Source: Meandrina meandrites
Lineage: Eukaryota > Cnidaria > Anthozoa > Scleractinia > Meandrinidae
DNA: 64,000 nt
Assembly: GCA_963693305.1 (NCBI GenBank)
Contig: OY855904.1
Span: 10,970,996 to 11,034,995, forward strand
Direction: 5' to 3'
The notes under the pieces are model-generated. The model ran no database searches. It was not told the DNA's origin and saw only the letters and a list, made by a program, of their open reading frames with translations. Of the stretch, positions 28,548 to 43,100 are shown piece after piece (position 1 is the first letter of the stretch; each line of letters starts with the position of its first letter). The translations under genes and the position numbers were made by a program.

Positions 28548-29733
28548 ATACCTCTTATTAATCGAGTTCGAGGTCCGTACTGTAAAATACGGACCGAGTT
28601 TTTTCCCGTCGATTTATGGCCCAAGCGCGAAGCGCGCGGGCCATAAATCGATGGGAAAAAACGAGGATCCGTATTTTACAGTACGGACCGAGAAAACGAG
28701 GTTAATAAGATATTTATTATATCTCTCATTCTGGAGAAAAGAAACCATTTCAAGTCAATCGCGGCTACATTTGAATGACGCGCGCGTCAAATGCAAGAAG
28801 AAAGCGAAATTTATTGGCTTACGAAAACAGTTTGCAGTTGGCTCGCAGAGACAGTTCTAGAGACGTGAATCCAAACTTCAAACGTTTTAATTTTACGATT
28901 AATCCGTATAGCTTCTTTCTGTGGAAAACTGGATACAGTTCAAGATTACTTTGAAATAACTCCTGAAGTGATGTGAAGTTCGATAAACAGAGAAGAACAA
29001 CTCTACTGAGAAGAAAGCGGTGACCGCAAGCAACAAACAATGATTTCGTCGAAAACATAAACAACCGGTAAAAACCTCAGAGACCTCCGTCTACTTTTAA
29101 GCACTTTGTTATGTCGTCCTGAGAGGTGTTTGGTGCAGAATTCTTGTTGGAAAATGAGTACACTATCGAACTTTTGTCTGGGGTGAACTCGAACTATCCG
29201 GCCGTTTTCAAAATATTAAGCGGACGTCGTTAAAAATTTGCCGAAGAGATCGTCAACAACAGCAGCAGGTACGTTGTTTTGAGTGTTTTGTTCGTTTACT
29301 CTCGACTAGCCTGCGAATACAGCCGCCTCTCATTCCGGGAGCGATGAGAGGCGGCTGTATTCGACAAACTCTCGACAAAACTCTTTAAATCTTTTTCATT
29401 CAGAATTCGACTTCTCTACCTTTCGGCAGAGAGAAAATTGTCAAGTTTCTGACTTGTGTGATGCTCGGGGTCGGGGACGCTTTCAGTTTCTAAAAGATCT
29501 GAAAAATCTAGTTTGAATTTTGTAAGACCCTGTTCTTTTCGCTTTTTTTCTCAAAATGTTTTGTCCGAATGCAAATGTTTTCAAAGTAGCTTTCAAAATT
29601 TTCGTTGTAAGAGATTTTGATAAACAAAACTTATCGCATCTGGAGAACTCTCAAATTTCGCGGGCCGTACTGTAGAATACGGCCCGTAAAATTGACCAAT
29701 CACAGCGCGCGTACTGTCTTAGAGATATAATAA
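28548..29733. mobile_element. Insertion with long hairpin and TTATTATATCTCT inverted ends
   Basis: The paralogous region near 52785 reads GATTAC directly into TGCTTTATAAAATA, so everything between is inserted DNA. The first part (about 28555-28712) is a large hairpin whose arms carry GTCCGTACTGTAAAATACGG and TTTATGGCCC with their complements. The second part is bounded by TTATTATATCTCT (28714-28726) and AGAGATATAATAA (29721-29733). No transposase frame is visible. It may be two elements, one nested in or next to the other. Confidence 0.75.
29307..29367. mobile_element. 61-bp hairpin element with 9-bp target duplication
   Basis: GCGAATACAGCCGCCTCTCA pairs with its downstream complement around a short loop. 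Direct repeats ACTCTCGAC flank it at 29298-29306 and 29368-29376. It sits inside the 28548-29733 insertion. Confidence 0.8.
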
Positions 29734-31141: not shown

Positions 31142-31329
31142 AAATGTATTTTCCGCTGGTATGAAGTTGATATAGTTCATTAGCAGTTATGTTTTTCGTG
31201 TTTGTTGGAGCACGCCGTCAGGGCGTGTCTCCAGGGATTATGTGATTGGTTGGTGTTTAGTATTTTAGGATTCAAAGAGTTGCTAGATTCCTCTCGCTCG
31301 CGCTGTCCATCCTGGCGTTTACTTCTTTT
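31142..31329 (+). repeat. Left terminal repeat A1 (188 bp)
   Basis: Starts AAATGTATTTTCCGCTGG and is repeated at 32044-32231 with one difference (GCCGTCAGGG against GCCGTTAGGG). It should hold the promoter of the element, since the gag ATG follows 20 bases after its end. Confidence 0.88.
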
Positions 31330-31349
31330 GATGCTGTGAGAAGCTTGCT

Positions 31350-32471
31350 ATGATCTCTTCAGAAGAAGGTGGTTCGGCGTCTTCTATCGCTGATGCCGAC
31401 GTTCCATCTCAAAATTCTTCCTCGAAGTCGCAATTGGTCGACGAGGTTTTCTCGCTTTTCAAAGGCTACCTGACTTCGCAGTTGGAAGAGAAAGGGAAGC
31501 AGTTTGAGCGCACCGCGAAGTTCGATAAAGAAGCTGCGGACATCAAGTATAAAGGCAATCGTAAGCAGTTCGAGGTGAATTTGCGGTTGGACAATATTTT
31601 AACACAAATCGATGATAGTGTTGGCAGCCCGGATGATATTCACAAGTTGGTTGCTGAAGGTAAATTGATCATCAAGGAGCGTCAAAAATTGATCAAAATC
31701 GCCGACAAGAACAGAGACGGTTGGCTTGTTGTCCAAGAATACGAGTCCGATGATCTCGCGTCAGATTCCGAAGATGAGAAGAAGATACGAAAAGCCAAGG
31801 CTGCCGCTGAGAAAAAGCGAAAAGAAACGAAGAGTAACTTCGGTAACACTCCGAAAAAATTTAAATCTTCTAGCGATTTTCAGCTTTTTCGCGGTAAGAC
31901 CACTTTTTATTTTTACTTTGTGAAGTTCTCGGTTCATTTGGTTGGATTGCCTGAGCATCCAACCATCAACTTGTGTATTTATTTATCTAAGTATTTAAGA
32001 GGAAAATAATTTACGTTCGTTTGAGCGTAGCGAATTAGAACGTAAATGTATTTTCCGCTGGTATGAAGTTGATATAGTTCATTAGCAGTTATGTTTTTCG
32101 TGTTTGTTGGAGCACGCCGTTAGGGCGTGTCTCCAGGGATTATGTGATTGGTTGGTGTTTAGTATTTTAGGATTCAAAGAGTTGCTAGATTCCTCTCGCT
32201 CGCGCTGTCCATCCTGGCGTTTACTTCTTTTCCCACCCGCCCGCCCCATTTTCTGTTCCAGTTTCATTTTGTTTTTTCTGTTGTTTTAGGCCGTTCAGAA
32301 CATGCTTCAAGCGCCGGTTGCTGCTTCCGTTGCAACCGTCCAGGACACTGGTCCAAGGACTGCCGAGTCCTGTTGCCTTCCACCTCAAACAGAAGCGGTT
32401 TCTATTATTCAAACAGTGCCACAACTGTTAGGCCCGGATCAGGAGGTCTTGCCGATGGAAGCTCAAAGTGA
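31350..32471 (+). CDS. Gag-like ORF1 of the DIRS element, two exons
   Basis: Exon 1 (31350-31893) starts with ATG and encodes an acidic then lysine-rich protein with a coiled middle section. A strong donor (GCG|GTAAGA) and an acceptor with a long pyrimidine tract (TTGTTTTAG|GCC, exon 2 from 32290) join in frame to a CCHC zinc knuckle (CFRCNRPGHWSKDC), ending at TGA 32469-32471. The knuckle appearing exactly after the splice supports the intron. Unspliced reading stops at 32009. The intron (31894-32289) holds all of B1 and A2. Confidence 0.75.
31942..32046 (+). repeat. Internal repeat B1 (105 bp)
   Basis: Identical by eye to 35812-35916. It ends in an inverted repeat, TTTACGTTC ... GAACGTAAA, that borders the A2 start by a shared AAA, the expected form of a recombinase crossover site. 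Confidence 0.88.
32044..32231 (+). repeat. Internal repeat A2 (188 bp)
   Basis: Second copy of the left terminus, fused to B1 with a three-base overlap. It lies inside the gag intron. Confidence 0.88.
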
Positions 32472-32512
32472 TGGAGGTGATAACGTATTGTTTGCACAAC
32501 TCTCGGAGGTAA

Positions 32513-34192
32513 AAGAAGCTTGAGTTCGAAGATTCCAGCGGGACAGTTTTGTCACAAGTCAAGGGTAGTCTGAGAAGACACGTAGATTTTTGGCGTAGGA
32601 TAGGTGCCCCTAGATACATATTATCGGTTATATGCGAGGGTTACCGTTTGCCTTTTCAGCAAACTCCCCCTGGGTTTACCACCAAAAATAACAGATCAGC
32701 TTTAGATAAGTCAGAGTTTGTTTGTGAAGCCATTTTGGAGCTTTTACATTCAGGCAGGGTAATGGAATTAAATGGGCCACCTGATGTTGTTAATCCTTTG
32801 AGTATGTCCATCCAGCCCAACGGTAAAAAGAGATTAATCCTCGATCTCCGTTACATTAACAATTTTCGTATTAAACAGAAGTTCAAGTACGAGGATTGGA
32901 AAATTGCTTTATCTTATTTCCAAAAGGGTTTTTTTATGATTACTTTTGACCTTAAAAGTGGCTACCACCATATTGAAATTCATCCAGATCACCAGAGGTT
33001 TTTGGGGTTCGCATGGAAGTTTCCAGGCGAAGATTCCATGCGATATTTTGTGTTTACAGTTCTTCCTTTTGGTCTGTCCTCTGCACGCTACATTTTTACA
33101 AAATGTTTAAAACCGCTCGAGAAGTATTGGAGGTTCAATGGTGTTAATATTGCTTTATTTCTTGATGATGGCTGGTTGATAGATTCTGACCATGACACTT
33201 GTACAGTCCTGGCTACTAATGTTTGGTCTGATTTAAGGAAGTCGGGGTTTATCACCAATGATGAGAAGTCACAATGGTGTCCGAGTCAAGTTATCGAATG
33301 GTTGGGGATCGTATGGGACACCACTAATGGAACTATTAGCATTTCTGATCGTCGGGAAAATAGCATCGCTAAATCTATCGATAAGATTCTCTTTAGTGAT
33401 CGTTTGGTTTCGGCGCGGGAGTTGGCCTCACTCGTAGGCAAGGTTATTTCTGGCGGGGCGGTTTTTGGTAATATTTCCAGAATTATGACTAGGTACTGCT
33501 CTATTTCAGTTGCGTCTGCCCAGGATTGGGACTCCTAGTTTTATCTTGATCAATATTGTGTAAGGGAACTTTATTTCTGGGAGGCTAATTTAAAGCGACT
33601 GAATTGTATGGTAGTGGCGGATTCTCCGTATAGAATGTCTAATTACGTGGTTTATTCAGATGCAAGCGCCACAGGTTGTGGTGCTCATCTTGATGTTAAT
33701 GATGAGCAAGTTTGTCATAAGCAGTGGGTTTTGGAATGGAGGGAATTATCTGCTATATTGTTCGCTTTACATTCATTTTTACCCTTACTTAAAGGCTCCT
33801 ATGTGAAGTGGTTTTCTGATAGTCAAAATGCATTAAAGATTATACAAGTGGGGAGTATGAGAAGCGATTTACATGCTATCGCGCTGGAGATTTTTCAGTT
33901 CTGTGCCAATAATGGCATTGAGTTAGAGGTCCAGTGGATCCCTCGCACTGAGATTGAGAGGGCTGACTATATTAGTCGTATCATTGATGTAGACTATTGG
34001 CAGATTTCAGCCGATTGTTTCATGTCTTTAGAGGAAAGCTGGGGTGTTCATTCAGTGGATTGTTTTGCTTGTTATTATAATAAGAAGGTTAACAAGTTTT
34101 TCTCTAGATTTTGGAACCCAGGTTGTAGCGGGGTGGATTTTTTCGTGCAAAATTTGGAGGGTGAAAATTGCCTCGTTGTTCCCCCTGTGTAA
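32513..34192 (+). pseudogene. Reverse transcriptase-RNase H of the DIRS element, broken
   Basis: The reverse transcriptase shows GKKRLILDLRYIN, TFDLKSGYHHIEI, VLPFGLSSA and the catalytic FLDDG in place of Y-x-D-D, as usual in DIRS elements. An in-frame TAG at 33536-33538 interrupts it before RNase H (VYSDASATGCGAH, ELSAILFALHSF, FSDSQNALKII). The frame ends at TAA 34190-34192; the natural continuation (VSLIARVIHYLHV) is in another frame, 34168-34431, so one indel lies near the C5 run at about 34180. The open frame begins just after a TAA at 32510, about 40 bases past the gag stop. Confidence 0.82.
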
Positions 34193-34479
34193 GCCTTATT
34201 GCTAGAGTTATTCATTATCTGCACGTGTCCAGGGCCATTGCCACTGTAGTTGTACCTTTTTGGCCGTCTTCATTTTTCTGGCCCATTATTTCTAGAAAAT
34301 TTTCTAGGTTTATTATAGATTGCAAGTGTTTTGATGCTTCTGCTTTAGAACAAGGGCGGAACACTAATTCACTCTTGGGCAGTGATAGGTTCCCTGGGTT
34401 CATCTTAGCTGTTCGTATGAAGTTTTCTTAAGTATCTATAGCTTTATTTGCATGGGACGCTTGCCCATTTATTTTTCAG

Positions 34480-34625
34480 TGGATAAGAGGCACTGGCCTG
34501 ACTTGGAGTTATTACAATGTCTTTTGTGTAAAAGAGGCACTGGCCTGACTTGGTGTTATTACAATGTGTTTTGTGGAAAAGAGGCACTGGCCTGAGTTGG
34601 TATTATTACAATGTTTTTGTGTAGG
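34480..34625 (+). repeat. Three tandem units between pol and recombinase
   Basis: The block AAGAGGCACTGGCCTGACTT plus GTTATTACAATGT recurs three times with a period of about 60 bases (starts near 34487, 34534 and 34579). Confidence 0.8.
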
Positions 34626-34726
34626 CGCTCGCCGTTTCTTTTTTCATGTTGTGGAAAAACCGTTTTTCCGGGATGTTACTGTTTTAGCGCCTCTTTTTCC
34701 TTATTTCTTTTGTTTTCTGATTACAG

Positions 34727-35734
34727 ACGTTTGTCTCAGACGATTTTTGGACTCGCCTGCCGGTTAGTGTAAAGCCAGACCTAGGAGAGCTTATCTCGGT
34801 TTTGCTGAAGTCTAAAGCGGATTCTACAGCGAAGAGATATAAGAAAGAGATTGTGAAGTTTATTGAATATTGTAATTTTTCCGGGGTTCGGCCGGTGCCT
34901 CCTTTTCCAGTTGCGTTTATAGTTGCTTATCTTTTTAAGGTTTATAAGAGTTCTAATTCTTATGCCTCTTTAGTTATGTCTCATGCAGCTCTTAAGTGGT
35001 TTCACTCGTTAGGTCCAAGTAACGGCGCCAATCAATTGGATAGTTCGATCTGTCATAATTTGCTGGAGGCGGCTAGGCGCAATAAGCCGGTTAGTGTTAA
35101 AAAGGCGCCTATCTCTGCCGACATTATTAAGAGTATTATTGATAAGTTCGCTGGGCCTTCTGCTAATCTTAAGGATATGCGAGTTGCTTGTATCTGCTCG
35201 TTAGGCTTTGCGGGGTTTTTTCGTTATGATGAACTTAGTAACATTGCGCCCTCGCATCTTGAATTTTTTCCTGATCATCTTAGAGTGTTTGTTCCCAGGG
35301 CTAAAAATGACATTTATCGCGAGGGTAATTATGTTTATATTAAGAGATTGGGTAACAAGTATTGCCCTGTTGCACTTTTAGAAGGGTATATTTCCATGTG
35401 TGGCATTGAACTTTCCAGTTCAGTTGCTCTATTCCGTCCAGTAAGATTTTTTAAGTCCACCAATACTTATAAGTTACATGGAGTTAAATTATCGTATACT
35501 AGATGCAGAGAAATCTTTAAAGAGTGCCTTAAAGGAATAGGGGTGAATCATAAGTTGTACGGTCTTTATAGTTTAAGGTCTGGTGGAGCTACCTCTGCTG
35601 TTAGTCATAATCCTAATCTTTCAGAAAGGGTACTTAAACTTCATGGTCGTTGGAAGTCTGATACCGCGAAAGATATGTACATTCTAGAAGATATTTCTAA
35701 GCGTTTGCAAGTAACTAGTCAACTTGGTTTGTAA
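34727..35734 (+). CDS. Tyrosine recombinase of the DIRS element
   Basis: Integrates the circular DNA form by site-specific recombination. The N-terminal SAM-like part starts near KSKADSTAKRYKKEI; the catalytic part has the first arginine in GFAGFFRYDELS, then YSLRSGGATSA and HGRWKSDTAKDMYI with the nucleophilic tyrosine. The H-x-x-R box reads Y-S-L-R, with tyrosine where histidine is normal. No ATG opens the frame; a good acceptor (TTCTGATTACAG, ending 34726) suggests it is a 3' exon. It ends at TAA 35732-35734, about 80 bases before B2. Confidence 0.82.
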   Translation, partial: TFVSDDFWTRLPVSVKPDLGELISVLLKSKADSTAKRYKKEIVKFIEYCNFSGVRPVPPFPVAFIVAYLFKVYKSSNSYASLVMSHAALKWFHSLGPSNGANQLDSSICHNLLEAARRNKPVSVKKAPISADIIKSIIDKFAGPSANLKDMRVACICSLGFAGFFRYDELSNIAPSHLEFFPDHLRVFVPRAKNDIYREGNYVYIKRLGNKYCPVALLEGYISMCGIELSSSVALFRPVRFFKSTNTYKLHGVKLSYTRCREIFKECLKGIGVNHKLYGLYSLRSGGATSAVSHNPNLSERVLKLHGRWKSDTAKDMYILEDISKRLQVTSQLGL

Positions 35735-35811
35735 ATTTGCATTTATTTAGTGTGATTCAGTTTATTCATTCTATTATGATTGCTTTTGTGAATCTTGAAT
35801 AAACGTCAGTT

Positions 35812-35916
35812 TTGGATTGCCTGAGCATCCAACCATCAACTTGTGTATTTATTTATCTAAGTATTTAAGAGGAAAATAATTTACGTTCGTTTGAGCGTAG
35901 CGAATTAGAACGTAAA
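35812..35916 (+). repeat. Right terminal repeat B2 (105 bp)
   Basis: Matches B1 over its full length and marks the right end of the element. Sequence diverges from the B1A2 junction immediately after the terminal AAA. Confidence 0.87.
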
Positions 35917-37191: not shown

Positions 37192-40100
37192 ATGGGAAAT
37201 ACCACCTCACACGAAACATATGAGTCCTCAAATAAGCATACAGACGGCTATGCGTATTGGGCCGAGTTTGAGCCAGAGTATTTTGAGCAGGGTGTTTCTC
37301 GCTATGCCTTTAAAGGTAGGTATCGAGGAAGCGGCCCAATGAGAAATCGGCCATGTGTCACTAAAGTCTTTAAGAGCCACTATGCCAAGAACTTCGATAT
37401 GTGGGTACCTGACCTGGCTGCAAGTAAGAGAGCTCAGAGGTTTGCCAGCCATTTCAACAGAAGCGAGCTTCCCAAGCTTGCTATAGAGCCTAAAAGAGAT
37501 TTGGATTTTGTCATCCCTCTTATTGCCAAGACAGATAAACTATCACATTTCAACTATCTCTGGTTTATCCCAGGAGCAGATGATAAAAGGTGAGGATCCA
37601 CATTGTGCAGTGTAATCTTAGTAAAATTTTTCTCTTCAGTTGATGATGGTTTCTATTTCCGCTTTCGCTTTCGCTCTCGGTCTTCCCTTGGGTGAATAAT
37701 TCTACTTTGTAAACATTCCTATAAAAAGGCCCCCTCTAGCACTTTGTTGGCTTCAATGTTCCGCAAATTTTGCTTTTTAAATGCGACTCCTGTTCATTTA
37801 TGTGGAAGTAACAACCTCATATACAATATATACTACCAATAATTCTTTCCATACAAGCTTAGAGAAAATTTTAAACAGACATTTATGCATTTATTCTGAG
37901 AATTTGAAATTCGTGTTGACCACGCAAAAACACTGTTACTACATGAAAGCTCAAAGAGATAATGCTGAACACATCAATCGTTTCACTATTTATGAATTTA
38001 AGAATTCAATCAACAAGGATAACGATGCTTTGGAACTAATACCTGTATTTCGAAATGATGTAGGCGAACCATGAGAGGACGCCTCTTCATATGAACTCGG
38101 TAACCGGGCTGGCTCGGTTACCGGGATGAATTTTGTCGTCTGTTCATATGGGAAATTCCAGCCCGGTGACCGGGACGAAATTCAAGAAATAAAACCAAAA
38201 TGGCGCCACATAAACTTGCCGTTCGCGACTATCATATATAAAGCTAATTCAAATACTTTAGAAATGGAAATGTGGAAATGCATACAAGGCAAACGTAGGC
38301 CGCCCTGTAGCGAAAGCAAAGCTTATTTGTGAAAAAAGTTTCGTCCCGGTAACAGGGCTGAAGTATGGTGGCCTATGACTATCATTCAAAATTTGCCTCA
38401 TATTTACACAAAAATTGTAAAACAGAACACAAATTAACCAAAAATTAAGAATAAAATACTATTCAAATTAAAAATAAAAGCGTTGAACATGAAAATGAAA
38501 TGCAAAGCAGAAATAAAATGAAAATAAAAACCAAAACAAACCGAATTAAACGTGAAACAAAAACTAAAGTAAACTAAAAAAGGAAATTAAAAAAGTGAAT
38601 ATAAAATTAAACATAAATTGAAATGAAAGTGAATTGATAAAAAAAAAACTAAAAACAAAATTAAGTTCAAATGAAAATGAAAACAAATTTTTCATGAGCC
38701 TGGGGCTATCATAGTATACCAGGATGCTTTGCACGATATCTCCCATAATGCCTTGTGAGCTTTTCAAGATGGCGGGTTTGAGAAATGATTCTTGGTGCCG
38801 AGGACTTGGCGTTACAGGAAGGTTTGGCGAAATATGTGAGACAGGGTATGCAAAGGAAGGAAATGTTAGATTTTTTAAAAAGAGACTTTCCTATATATGC
38901 TTGGAGCATACCTACTCTCGACAGACGGCTTCGACACTTTCTTATTTTCTACACGGATAAAAATGTCACTGTTGACGAAGTTAAGGAGGCTGTTGGCAAA
39001 GAACTTCAAGGACCTGGCCAACTTCTTGGTTACTGGGCATTACACCAAAAGATCCGTCAAGAACATCTTTTGAATGTCCCGAGAGATCTGGTATATGCAG
39101 TTATGCAGGAATTGGATCCTGAGGGACTGGAGAGTCGTGCAGTTGGGGTCAAGAACAAGAAAAAGAAACAGTGTTTTACAACTAGAGGCCCAAACTGGGT
39201 TCATTCTGTTGACGGACATAATAAACTAATGGGTTTTCAGAATGATTCCTTCCCATTAACAATATTATATGGTAGTGTAGATACTGCAAGCAGAAAGTTA
39301 CTTTGGTAACCAACAGAAACAGTGATTTATGGTCCATCAACTGCTAACCAAGTAAGTGTCAGTTCGGCGGATAACCAGAACTGGGTATATGATTTCCTGT
39401 TATCTGATTGGCTCACACAAAACCAAAAGATTGCCTAGACCGCGAAAGTTCTAATGTTCTAAGTTCTAAGTTCTAATGAAATGGCGAGCGTGAAAGTCGA
39501 GCGATCGAGCGAAGCAAGTCTTATGTCGCATGTAGGAGGAATCCCAATCTATCGATCTCTGGAGCCTCTGTAGGATTTGCTCCTGCTTTATTCATTCAAA
39601 CACTGCAATTTAAGCCAAAATGGAGTATAGGTTTTCCCGACACGGACGGCTGTATACAGGCTACTGAAAAATAGGGTTATTATAAGCGATCGACAAATCG
39701 AAGACAAAATTGCAAAATTGTTTCTGTTGGGTCCATATCGCCATGATGTTGCTGAAGAAATGCATGCATCGTGGCCATTATACCCGTTTCCGTGCCTCTG
39801 TCCATCCGTAAATATGAGGGAATGACTTTGCTTTCATACAGATATTCAAGATACCAACGGCCTATCAATCTCGGTTCGAGGTTAGTGGTCCAGATCCGTA
39901 GCCAAAGTAACTTTCTGCTTGTAGTATCTACACTACCATATAATATTGTTAGTGGGAAGGTATCATTCTGAAAACCCATTAGTTTATTATGTCCGTCAAC
40001 AGAATGAACCCAGTTTGGGCCTCTAGTTGTAAAACACTGTTTCTTTTTCTTGTTCTTGACCCCAACTGCACGACTCTCCAGTCCTTCAGGATCCAATTCC

Positions 40101-43100
40101 TGCATAACTGCATATACCAGATCTCTCGGGACATTCAAAAGATGTTCTTGACGGATCTTTTGGTTTAATGGCCGGTAACCAAGAAGTTGGCCAGGTCCTT
40201 GAACTTCTTTGCCAACAGCCTCCTTAACTTCGTCAACAGTGACATTTCTATCCGTGTAGAAAATATGAAAGTGTCGAAGCCGTCTGTCGAGAGTAGGTAT
40301 GCTCCAAGCATACATAGGAAAGTCTCTTTTTAGAAAATCTAACATTTCCTTCCTTTGCATACCCTGTCTCACATATTTCGCCAAACCTTCCTGTAACGCC
40401 AAGTCCTCGGCACCAAGAATCATTTCTCAAACCCGCCATCTTGAAAAGCTCACAAGGCATTATGGGAGATATCGTGCAAAGCATCCTGGTATACTATGAT
40501 AGCCCCAGGCTCATGAAAAATTTGTTTTCATTTTCATTTGAACTTACCGTAAAAACTCGTGTATAAGCCGCACTCGTAGATAAGCCGCACCCAAAATTTC
40601 AAGCACGATTTTGAGAAAAAAAATAAAAACTGTCGGAAAAATGCCCAGTTGATTGTGAAAAATGCTGGATTATGTGGAAATTTCAACAATCCATAAAGCT
40701 AAAGTTGATTCCTTGAGCCTTTCTCATGTGCAGGATGTACCATAAACGAGGAAACACATAAACGGAAAACACTCCAGTCTTACCCAGAATTTTATAGAAT
40801 AAACATCATTTCTGCCAACTTTGACATTTTTTATCTTTTTCTGCCATTCGTTGACAGGTATTTCTTCATTCATGACAGTTTTTACACCAAATTTTGCGGA
40901 CATGTTGTCGTTGTGTTCGTCAAAACGTTCGTAGCTTAGTAACCAGGCACTCGTTCGGACAACTGGTATCCAGGCCCATCGCCAAAAGACACGTGGAACG
41001 CCTGGAGGTTGAAAACTGTTCACGGACGAAAAGCGGGGGTTTCGTCGCTGTTTTGAGGGAAAAAACTTTTTCAAAATGATCAGTCTCTTTGTTATTTTTG
41101 TTTGTGAGGATAGTAAAGAGCTGCTTTGTCGCTTATATGGAGCAATTTTTCAGTTTTATGTGCAAAAATGCCCAGAGGATGCAGATGTGAGCGATTTACG
41201 TGGACCCGCACGGCCGCATCCTGTCAGATGCCCTGTTTGCATGCAATGGTCTTGTAGATAAGCCGCACCCACGATTTTGAGCCACAAATTTTGGCAAAAA
41301 AATGCGGCTTATACACGAGTTTTTACGGTAATTTTGTTTTTAGTTGTTTTTTTTTTTATCAATTCACTTTCATTTCAATTTATGTTTAATTTTATATTCA
41401 CTTTTTTAATTTCCTTTTTTAGTTTACTTTAGTTTTTGTTTCACGTTTAATTCGGTTTGTTTTGGTTTTTATTTTCATTTTATTTCTGCTTTGCATTTCA
41501 TTTTCATGTTCAACGCTTTTATTTTTAATTTGAATAGTATTTTATTCTTAATTTTTGGTTAATTTGTGTTCTGTTTTACAATTTTTGTGTAAATATGAGG
41601 CAAATTTCGAATGATAGTCATAGGCCACCATACTGAAGTGTTCATATGGGAAAATTTTCATCCCGGTTGCCGAGATGTCGGTTGCATGCATGCCCTCGGA
41701 GCTCCGGATCTCCCCAGGCACACAGGAGATCGAGCCTGATTGGTATCTTAAGGCGATAGCCCAGAAGAACACTCCCAAGGAGGCATAATATTTATAGGGG
41801 CACTGTCACGGGGATTTTAATGCTTTTTGGGAAAAAGTACTAAAATTGGTGAATAGGTCTTCTCGTACACGAAATGTACCTAGTACACCAAGATGGAGAT
41901 AAAAAGTAAATTGTTGTTGAAGGAAGAAGGGAGCCATAACAATTTTTAAGTGTTTTTCCAGTCCACAGGGACAAATCTTGAAAAAGTCAGCCTGACTTTT
42001 TCAAGTTGAGATCTAAAGTTCCTGATGGCATCACAATAATATCACTTGTTTATCACTTCAGTAGACGTTCATGGTGATTTTTAACAAAATTGGACCACTA
42101 TTCATAGTTTCCATGTCTTTAGGCTCTTGAGTTTTCGAAGTGAAACTGGTGACAGTGTCCTTTAAGGCTGCACTGTGATCAGTGACGTCACTGAATAACA
42201 CTTTGGTTTAGCACAAGTTGTTTAACACTGTAAAATTGATGAGCTTTCCGTATCTGGCTTCTAGTTAGATAAAACTGGCAGGTGCAACCAATATGACATT
42301 TGTGATACTAATTTGATACTTATTTTGCAGATATGTTTTGCCACAGGAATATGTGGCTATAGAGCCCTATCTTTCTGGGAGCTACCAGAAGTTCAATTCA
42401 AATGGTGGATATGAGAATGACCTCAGTAAGCTACTACCCGCTTTCTGCCACTGGACTTGGGAAATCAGTGGTCATAAATTTATGGTAAGGCAACAGGATT
42501 ATCTTATATCATGCAAATGTACTTTTGCTTTTAATCTCACTATCATTTGGAGCCTGGGCTCTCAGTATTTTGGTACTGTTGACAATACTACTGTTACCTT
42601 TACAATAGTTTAAACCCTTTGTAAGTTGTCTGTACATGGATGTAAAAGACTGCAGATTTTAAGTACAATTTGGATGTAAAGGTCTCTTTGTAGTTGGGTT
42701 TTCAACAAAATCCAGTCAGTTATACATAATTATCCCCGGCCACACCCCTCTCGCACAACGGAGCAGACAAAACGAGTCAGCAGATCTGTCCCAAGATAAA
42801 GAGGTCTGAACAAGATTCACAGGGGAGAAGAGAGAGGCACAAGAACAGAAAGACGGAGTGCCAGAGAAACATCATTATATGTATATTATGTATATATAAA
42901 CTATGTAGTTGTGAAAGAGGTGAAAAACTAGGCTTGAATACACTCAGAGACGATGTTCGGGAGCACAAGTCTGTGCCAAAGGCAGAGACAAATATAACAG
43001 GCAGATCGCTAGTCTCCTTGAAGCTTAATGAGTTCTTCTGGGATACCCACTGGAAGACGAACGTGGCGCCACCTCGATGAAAAAGAAATGACACATTCTG

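Follow-up and report, generated by a model that had tools for sequence, protein, structure and literature searches.

Described elements with split direct repeats and a tyrosine recombinase (YR) keep the internal pair of repeats, B1A2, at different places. In nematode-form Pat1 and in Kangaroo, the internal repeats lie between the methyltransferase (MT) and recombinase domains (PMC4157794). The echinoderm form of Pat1 has also been reported from Nematostella (PMC4157794). In the sections available on Ngaro and VIPER, the repeats are likewise split, in the order A1-ORFs-B1A2B2 (ORF, open reading frame), leaving a tiny second A...B unit after the ORFs, and no MT domain is reported there (PMC8547959, PMC6681497, PMC9210276); for VIPER, the available text reports no target duplication (PMC12278014), a trait noted as shared with the element described here. 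For DIRS-1, a model has been set out in which part of the element ends is missing from the RNA and is supplied by copying an internal region, after which the circle forms (PMC5633606). Here we describe a PAT-like element in a 64,000-nt stretch of the scleractinian Meandrina meandrites (contig OY855904.1, positions 10,970,996 to 11,034,995; the window hereafter), in which B1A2 lies inside a predicted intron of gag. The first-pass annotation of this locus held that B1A2 normally follows the ORFs in PAT- and Ngaro-like elements; this stands for Ngaro and Viper, where it is downstream of the YR, and does not always hold for PAT, given the placement in nematode-form Pat1 and Kangaroo (PMC4157794). 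Its further statement that it knew of no described element of the present arrangement agrees with our survey: no B1A2 inside an intron was found in the Creative Commons-licensed PubMed Central literature, with partial coverage that did not include the repeat position of echinoderm-form Pat1.

The element and the features that bear on the intron are as follows:

about 31145-35915, plus strand: whole element, with a PAT-like layout of A1, gag, B1A2, pol, YR, B2
31142..31329, plus strand: A1, left terminal repeat, from repeat comparison
31350..31893, plus strand: gag exon 1, 181 codons plus 1 nt, present in 16 close genomic copies
31894..32289, plus strand: predicted gag intron, 396 nt, GTAAGA...TTTTAG, from splice-site scores, copies and relatives
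31942..32046, plus strand: B1, internal right-end copy, 105 nt, 100% identical to B2
32001..32056, plus strand: inverted repeat across the B1/A2 junction, from a hairpin fold within 31942-32080
32044..32231, plus strand: A2, internal left-end copy, from repeat comparison, 99.5% identical to A1
32290..32471, plus strand: gag exon 2 with a CCHC zinc knuckle (zf-CCHC, E 7.5e-6), stop codon at 32469-32471
35798..35803, plus strand: AATAAA, 14 nt upstream of B2
35812..35916, plus strand: B2, right terminal repeat, from repeat comparison and the borders of other copies

The B1A2 junction (31942-32231) falls wholly within the predicted intron. Using a simple weight matrix, we found that no other GT in the interior of the element scores above the donor at 31894 (41st of the 3837 GTs in the window) and that the acceptor at 32290 scores second within the element (33rd of 3947 in the window); the best-scoring acceptor of the element is in the same tract, 28 nt upstream, and out of frame. 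The predicted splice joins ORF1 in frame to the zinc knuckle, giving a protein of 241 aa that ends at 32471, and the knuckle would be part of Gag only if the intron is removed. Although the length of the intron is divisible by 3, frame 0 through it has several stops. Both the repeats and the splice-site ranks agree with the first-pass annotation, which had placed B1A2 between a donor at 31893/31894 and an acceptor at 32289/32290 and had joined ORF1 to the knuckle across them. A1 and A2 differ at a single position of 188 and B1 and B2 at none of 105, so the window copy is young. The sole A1/A2 difference (31219/32121) happens to fall inside a strong hairpin of the A repeat at 32105-32140 (z -4.7).

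We searched the genome (551 Mb, 56 contigs) for further copies. All 23 candidates from the exon-1 query were scored, whereas for the intron query 40 of 118 candidates were scored, all 40 of them matching, so that A-bearing copies number at least as many as given here. Sixteen exon-1 copies at 98% identity or more comprised 15 B1A2-bearing loci and one further insertion, L041, described below. The placement proposed from the window copy recurred throughout: each of the 15 loci holds essentially the whole intron with B1A2 between the same splice sites, exon 1 upstream and A2, exon 2 and pol downstream, in identical order (15/15), and no copy with B1A2 behind the recombinase and an uninterrupted gag was found among them. 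The YR was reached in 14 of these loci, and at least part of B2 in 14; L039 is cut short, most of A1 is missing from L033, and exon 1 of L038 contains an insert. The donor GTAAGA is kept in all 16 close exon-1 copies, the AG before exon 2 is kept in 15/15 B1A2-bearing copies (with changed neighbouring bases in L043) and in 9/9 copies without gag, and the knuckle is intact in 15/15 B1A2-bearing copies. No copy with exon 1 joined directly to exon 2 was present among the 16 close exon-1 copies, which fits the notion that only unspliced RNA is copied. Two diverged gag pieces extend the pattern: L046 (71% DNA identity) keeps cgcg before and GTAAGA after the donor boundary, with B 43 nt further on, and L047 keeps the left part of the intron (intL) and B, with no A found after B. 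A nested solo B-A insertion into gag was considered and excluded, as the repeats are found at one and the same position in 15 loci and also in distant relatives.

Protein relatives of Gag mark the same boundary. A database search with the spliced Gag matched 293 proteins (120 listed) and a search with the relative P0059 matched 206 (120 listed), retrieving 161 distinct proteins, mostly unspliced frames; the closest named matches, among those listed, came from Pocillopora, Stylophora and Actinostola, which by themselves point to a cnidarian host, probably a stony coral. In a chosen set of 22 aligned relatives (40-81% identical to the first row), the Phe and Arg that precede the donor never vary, and conservation then falls from 86% at the following Gly to 50% at the next residue and 14-27% thereafter. 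Relatives down to about 40% identity end their alignment at the gag donor. Scoring by script with loose patterns placed the donor anchor in 119 of the 161 relatives, with the Gly of the G/GT codon in 90 of the 119; of the 42 tails with at least 40 residues, 33 showed the right end of B. Among the anchored relatives B is read in three frames (a, 28; b, 5; c, 1), and P0152 reads B1 directly into the start of A2. Since relatives read B in different frames, the B stretch after the donor is not coding, and a coding read-through tail was excluded on this ground. P0059 spans the junction and the knuckle, with FRG followed by CYRCHRNGHW and no break, whereas its sister P0102, which shares 92% identity with it over residues 1-181, ends at the donor. 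Whether P0059 derives from a transcript or from an intronless copy, either origin implies the splice, barring a deletion exact at both sites. Another protein, P0001, represents a deletion copy in which the donor is lost and the intron end is read into exon 2.

These data also bear on the simplest alternative, that there is no splicing, that ORF1 ends within B1 as a protein of 219 aa, and that the knuckle segment is a relic or a foreign part. The 219-aa frame is indeed open in 10 of the 15 B1A2-bearing copies and in many relatives. We nevertheless consider this very improbable, since the tail of the relatives reads B in several frames, P0059 runs across the junction, the donor is invariant, and the knuckle is intact in every B1A2-bearing copy as against damage in three of nine copies without gag (a post hoc comparison). 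Because the geometry is repeated in 14 further copies, the donor boundary is respected by relatives and P0059 is uninterrupted, the intron arrangement is beyond chance. The placement of B1A2 inside the predicted gag intron is therefore confirmed, the splicing itself being predicted from sequence.

As a new observation, B1A2 splits the element into two A...B units that are also found as separate insertions. At least nine insertions are gag-less (A-pol-YR-B): A, with host DNA on its left, runs directly into the 3' portion of the intron and then exon 2 and pol, and seven of the nine extend to the terminal B with host DNA beyond. The reciprocal form is represented by L041, a recent gag-only insertion of 907 bp with A, exon 1, the 5' part of the intron and B between host DNA on both sides, and by L045, an older one (85-88%) with internal gaps. 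Each gag-less and gag-only insertion has its own flanks. The element ends, reading TGTATTTTCC at about 31145 on the left and AGAACGTAA at about 35915 on the right, are shared by the other insertions, a few of which carry single-base changes and three of which (L031, L033 and L039) are truncated, and the left end adjoins different host DNA each time. In a tree built from exon 2 to YR, nearly star-like and with one row only 15% filled, grouping of the gag-less copies as one clade was rejected (p-AU 2e-7, approximately unbiased test), and the gag-less state required 7 changes against a shuffled mean of 7.6. As the gag-less copies do not form one clade, the gag-less form originated more than once, with recombination at B1A2 the simplest route. 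B1A2 thus behaves as a junction that can be cut and joined like the ends of the element. The B1/A2 junction can also form a hairpin (139-nt fold, z -3.83), equalled by 0 of 200 shuffles. Two other accounts of the gag-less copies were excluded: a single inactive lineage multiplying itself, since they are not a clade, and permuted insertions through B1A2, since seven of nine end in B followed by host DNA and none shows B-A-gag-B on the right. In three gag-less copies (L022, L023, L024), the knuckle has lost a His or Cys or is followed immediately by a stop, as seen post hoc.

We favor, with a probability of roughly two in three, a reading in which this is a two-unit PAT-like element whose B1A2 serves as end template, recombination junction and gag intron. 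The element would be made of two head-to-tail units, A1-gag-B1 and A2-pol-YR-B2. If it is transcribed as in the DIRS-1/PAT model, from inside A1 to just inside B2, B1A2 would be the one place in the full-length unspliced RNA where the joined ends are complete, and both the missing ends and the circle junction would have to be copied from it. As DNA, B1A2 would be equivalent to the B2A1 junction of the circle and hence a recombinase substrate, and recombination between the two junctions would yield the gag-less and gag-only products that are seen, by a route we infer. Removal of the intron would provide a Gag with its knuckle from an RNA without the end template, and intron-retaining RNA would serve as the genome. 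An end-deficient RNA and a proposed internal template are also features of DIRS-1 of Dictyostelium, for which circular cDNA has been reported, but no role for an intron is described in the available part of that source (PMC5633606).

Two measurements speak to this scheme. AATAAA stands 14 nt before the terminal B in 6/6 copies examined and in 0/4 cases before the internal B1 or the B of gag-only insertions; because it precedes the terminal B, the RNA should end just inside B2, leaving B1 as the sole full B. A1 and A2 of the same copy differ less than those of different copies (2.46 against 3.20 differences in 13 copies, with L033 and L037 excluded; none of 5000 permutations gave so low a value), which fits templating of A1 by A2. 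If A2 does template A1, an RNA that has lost the intron would be unable to rebuild its ends, as the absence of intronless copies suggests. Sorting of genome from message by splicing fits these results, with the fates of the two RNAs as the presumed part.

The remainder of the element carries the enzymatic regions:

32302..34432, plus strand: pol region, overlapping gag exon 2 in another frame; interrupted in the window copy
32513-33535, plus strand: reverse transcriptase (RT), RVT_1 E 5.5e-15, above cut-off
33539-34432, plus strand: RNase H and MT-like segment, RT_RNaseH 0.0014 and Dam 0.019, both below cut-off
34479..34619, plus strand: three 47-nt tandem repeats that separate pol from YR
34721..35734, plus strand: YR ORF, with a pyrimidine tract and acceptor-like ACAG and an exon start at 34727

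In 24/24 copies, the pol ATG is the first to follow the acceptor and lies 12 nt inside exon 2; two of these copies (L027 and L040) keep a 716-aa frame that starts there and runs through RT as far as the MT segment extends. In the window, this ATG lies 70 nt past the end of A2, much as the gag ATG lies 20 nt past the end of A1. A2 may therefore be the leader or promoter of pol; that it immediately precedes the pol start codon gives B1A2 a further reason to lie where it does. Taken further, A1 would drive gag and A2 would drive pol-YR, with the intron a repair that keeps the knuckle, an account to which we give somewhat less than an even chance. Along with the ATG positions and the open frame in two copies, it draws on the gag-less insertions, which resemble complete transcription units, and on the promoter activity ascribed to the long terminal repeats of DIRS-1 in the available part of the source (PMC5633606). 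Against it, replication would still need B1A2 in a long unspliced RNA under any published model. A promoter in A2 is compatible with the two-unit reading, and genome/message sorting would then be a side effect.

The YR frame opens at its pyrimidine tract with ACAG in 22/22 copies holding the YR, and no ATG was found near the ORF start in the nine copies examined. Of the two AGs, only the second (34738-34739, 13 nt on) would be in frame with the gag donor, so the YR may also need splicing. Its catalytic motifs, which we recognised by eye, are presumably those of a tyrosine recombinase, and the exact ends and reciprocal products fit such an enzyme. A PDB search with the YR returned no relative, and an AlphaFold model from the single sequence had a pLDDT of 36.5; searches of viral-contig and genome-contig collections found no relative. 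L031 and L042 match less closely over the tandem-repeat stretch.

From its structure and RT match, we place the element as probably PAT-like. It shares with Pat1-like elements the split direct repeats (A1-B1A2-B2), RT with a weakly matching RNase H, a putative MT-like segment, a putative YR ORF and, if spliced, a zinc knuckle in Gag (PMC4157794). Unlike in nematode-form Pat1 and Kangaroo, the internal repeats precede RT rather than separating MT from YR, being inside gag and its predicted intron, and unlike in Ngaro and VIPER they are not downstream of the YR, in the window copy or in 14 others. Elsewhere in the window, two near-identical inverted ORFs at 38785-39309 (plus strand) and 39680-40423 (minus strand), with arms 39208-39306/39902-40000 at 97%, are unrelated to the element, and imperfect inverted repeats at 28562-28699 bear a motif of paired TACTGTAAAATACGGACC stretches.

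Several observations weigh against the two-unit reading. Gag splicing in this animal is deduced from DNA, P0059 is a single protein from one 3051-bp contig, and a protein search with the junction region returned only P0001, not P0059. The Dam-like methyltransferase match is weak (E 0.019 and 0.024, below cut-off), as is the XerC match of the YR (E 0.072), which has no Pfam match. Within-copy similarity of B1 and B2 gave no signal (p 0.41; 13 copies, L031 and L039 left out). Gag-less insertions outnumber gag-only ones 9 to 1 (9 to 2 with the old L045), an excess that simple circle resolution does not predict and to which in-place excision or a subgenomic RNA may contribute. Such a route could account for the gag-less form by itself, through packaging of an A2-started subgenomic RNA together with full-length RNA or through YR-mediated excision in place of A1-gag-B1 between the left end and B1A2. 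We hold this possible, if short of an even bet: besides the excess, a gag-only RNA would be without a poly(A) signal before B. However, the RNA route does not easily make the A- and B-ended gag-only insertions L041 and L045, and with in-place excision the freed gag-only circle would need to reinsert.

A further difficulty comes from relatives with RYK or RIK in place of RGK, which make up 9 of the 119 anchored clusters (P0016, P0018-P0023, P0025 and P0027), one of them listing 260 member sequences. Judged from the proteins, this subfamily seems to be without the donor GT, and because of that loss cis splicing would be unneeded for its amplification; its copies are possibly splice-defective and amplified in trans. 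Donor loss in so abundant a subfamily would suit the view that B1A2 came to lie here by neutral accident in one family, without use to the element. We think this unlikely, as the arrangement is kept in relatives to about 40-45% gag identity.

In retroviruses, the packaging signal lies downstream of the splice donor, and splicing removes a signal that only the genomic RNA needs. In the arrangement described here, by contrast, splicing would take out the end template, and it is the spliced message that would encode the full Gag. Rebuilding of the ends in split-repeat recombinase elements has so far been a model with little direct evidence, and here the reciprocal products that it predicts at the internal junction are seen among many copies of one genome. 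The splicing event predicted in this element should decide whether an RNA can replicate. More speculatively, and in our view doubtfully, A-gag-B and A-pol-YR-B may be two recombinase-flanked modules that travel fused or apart with shared ends, splicing at their junction being the switch between genome and Gag message. If true, modules inserted separately could complement one another in trans, much as the parts of a segmented genome do.
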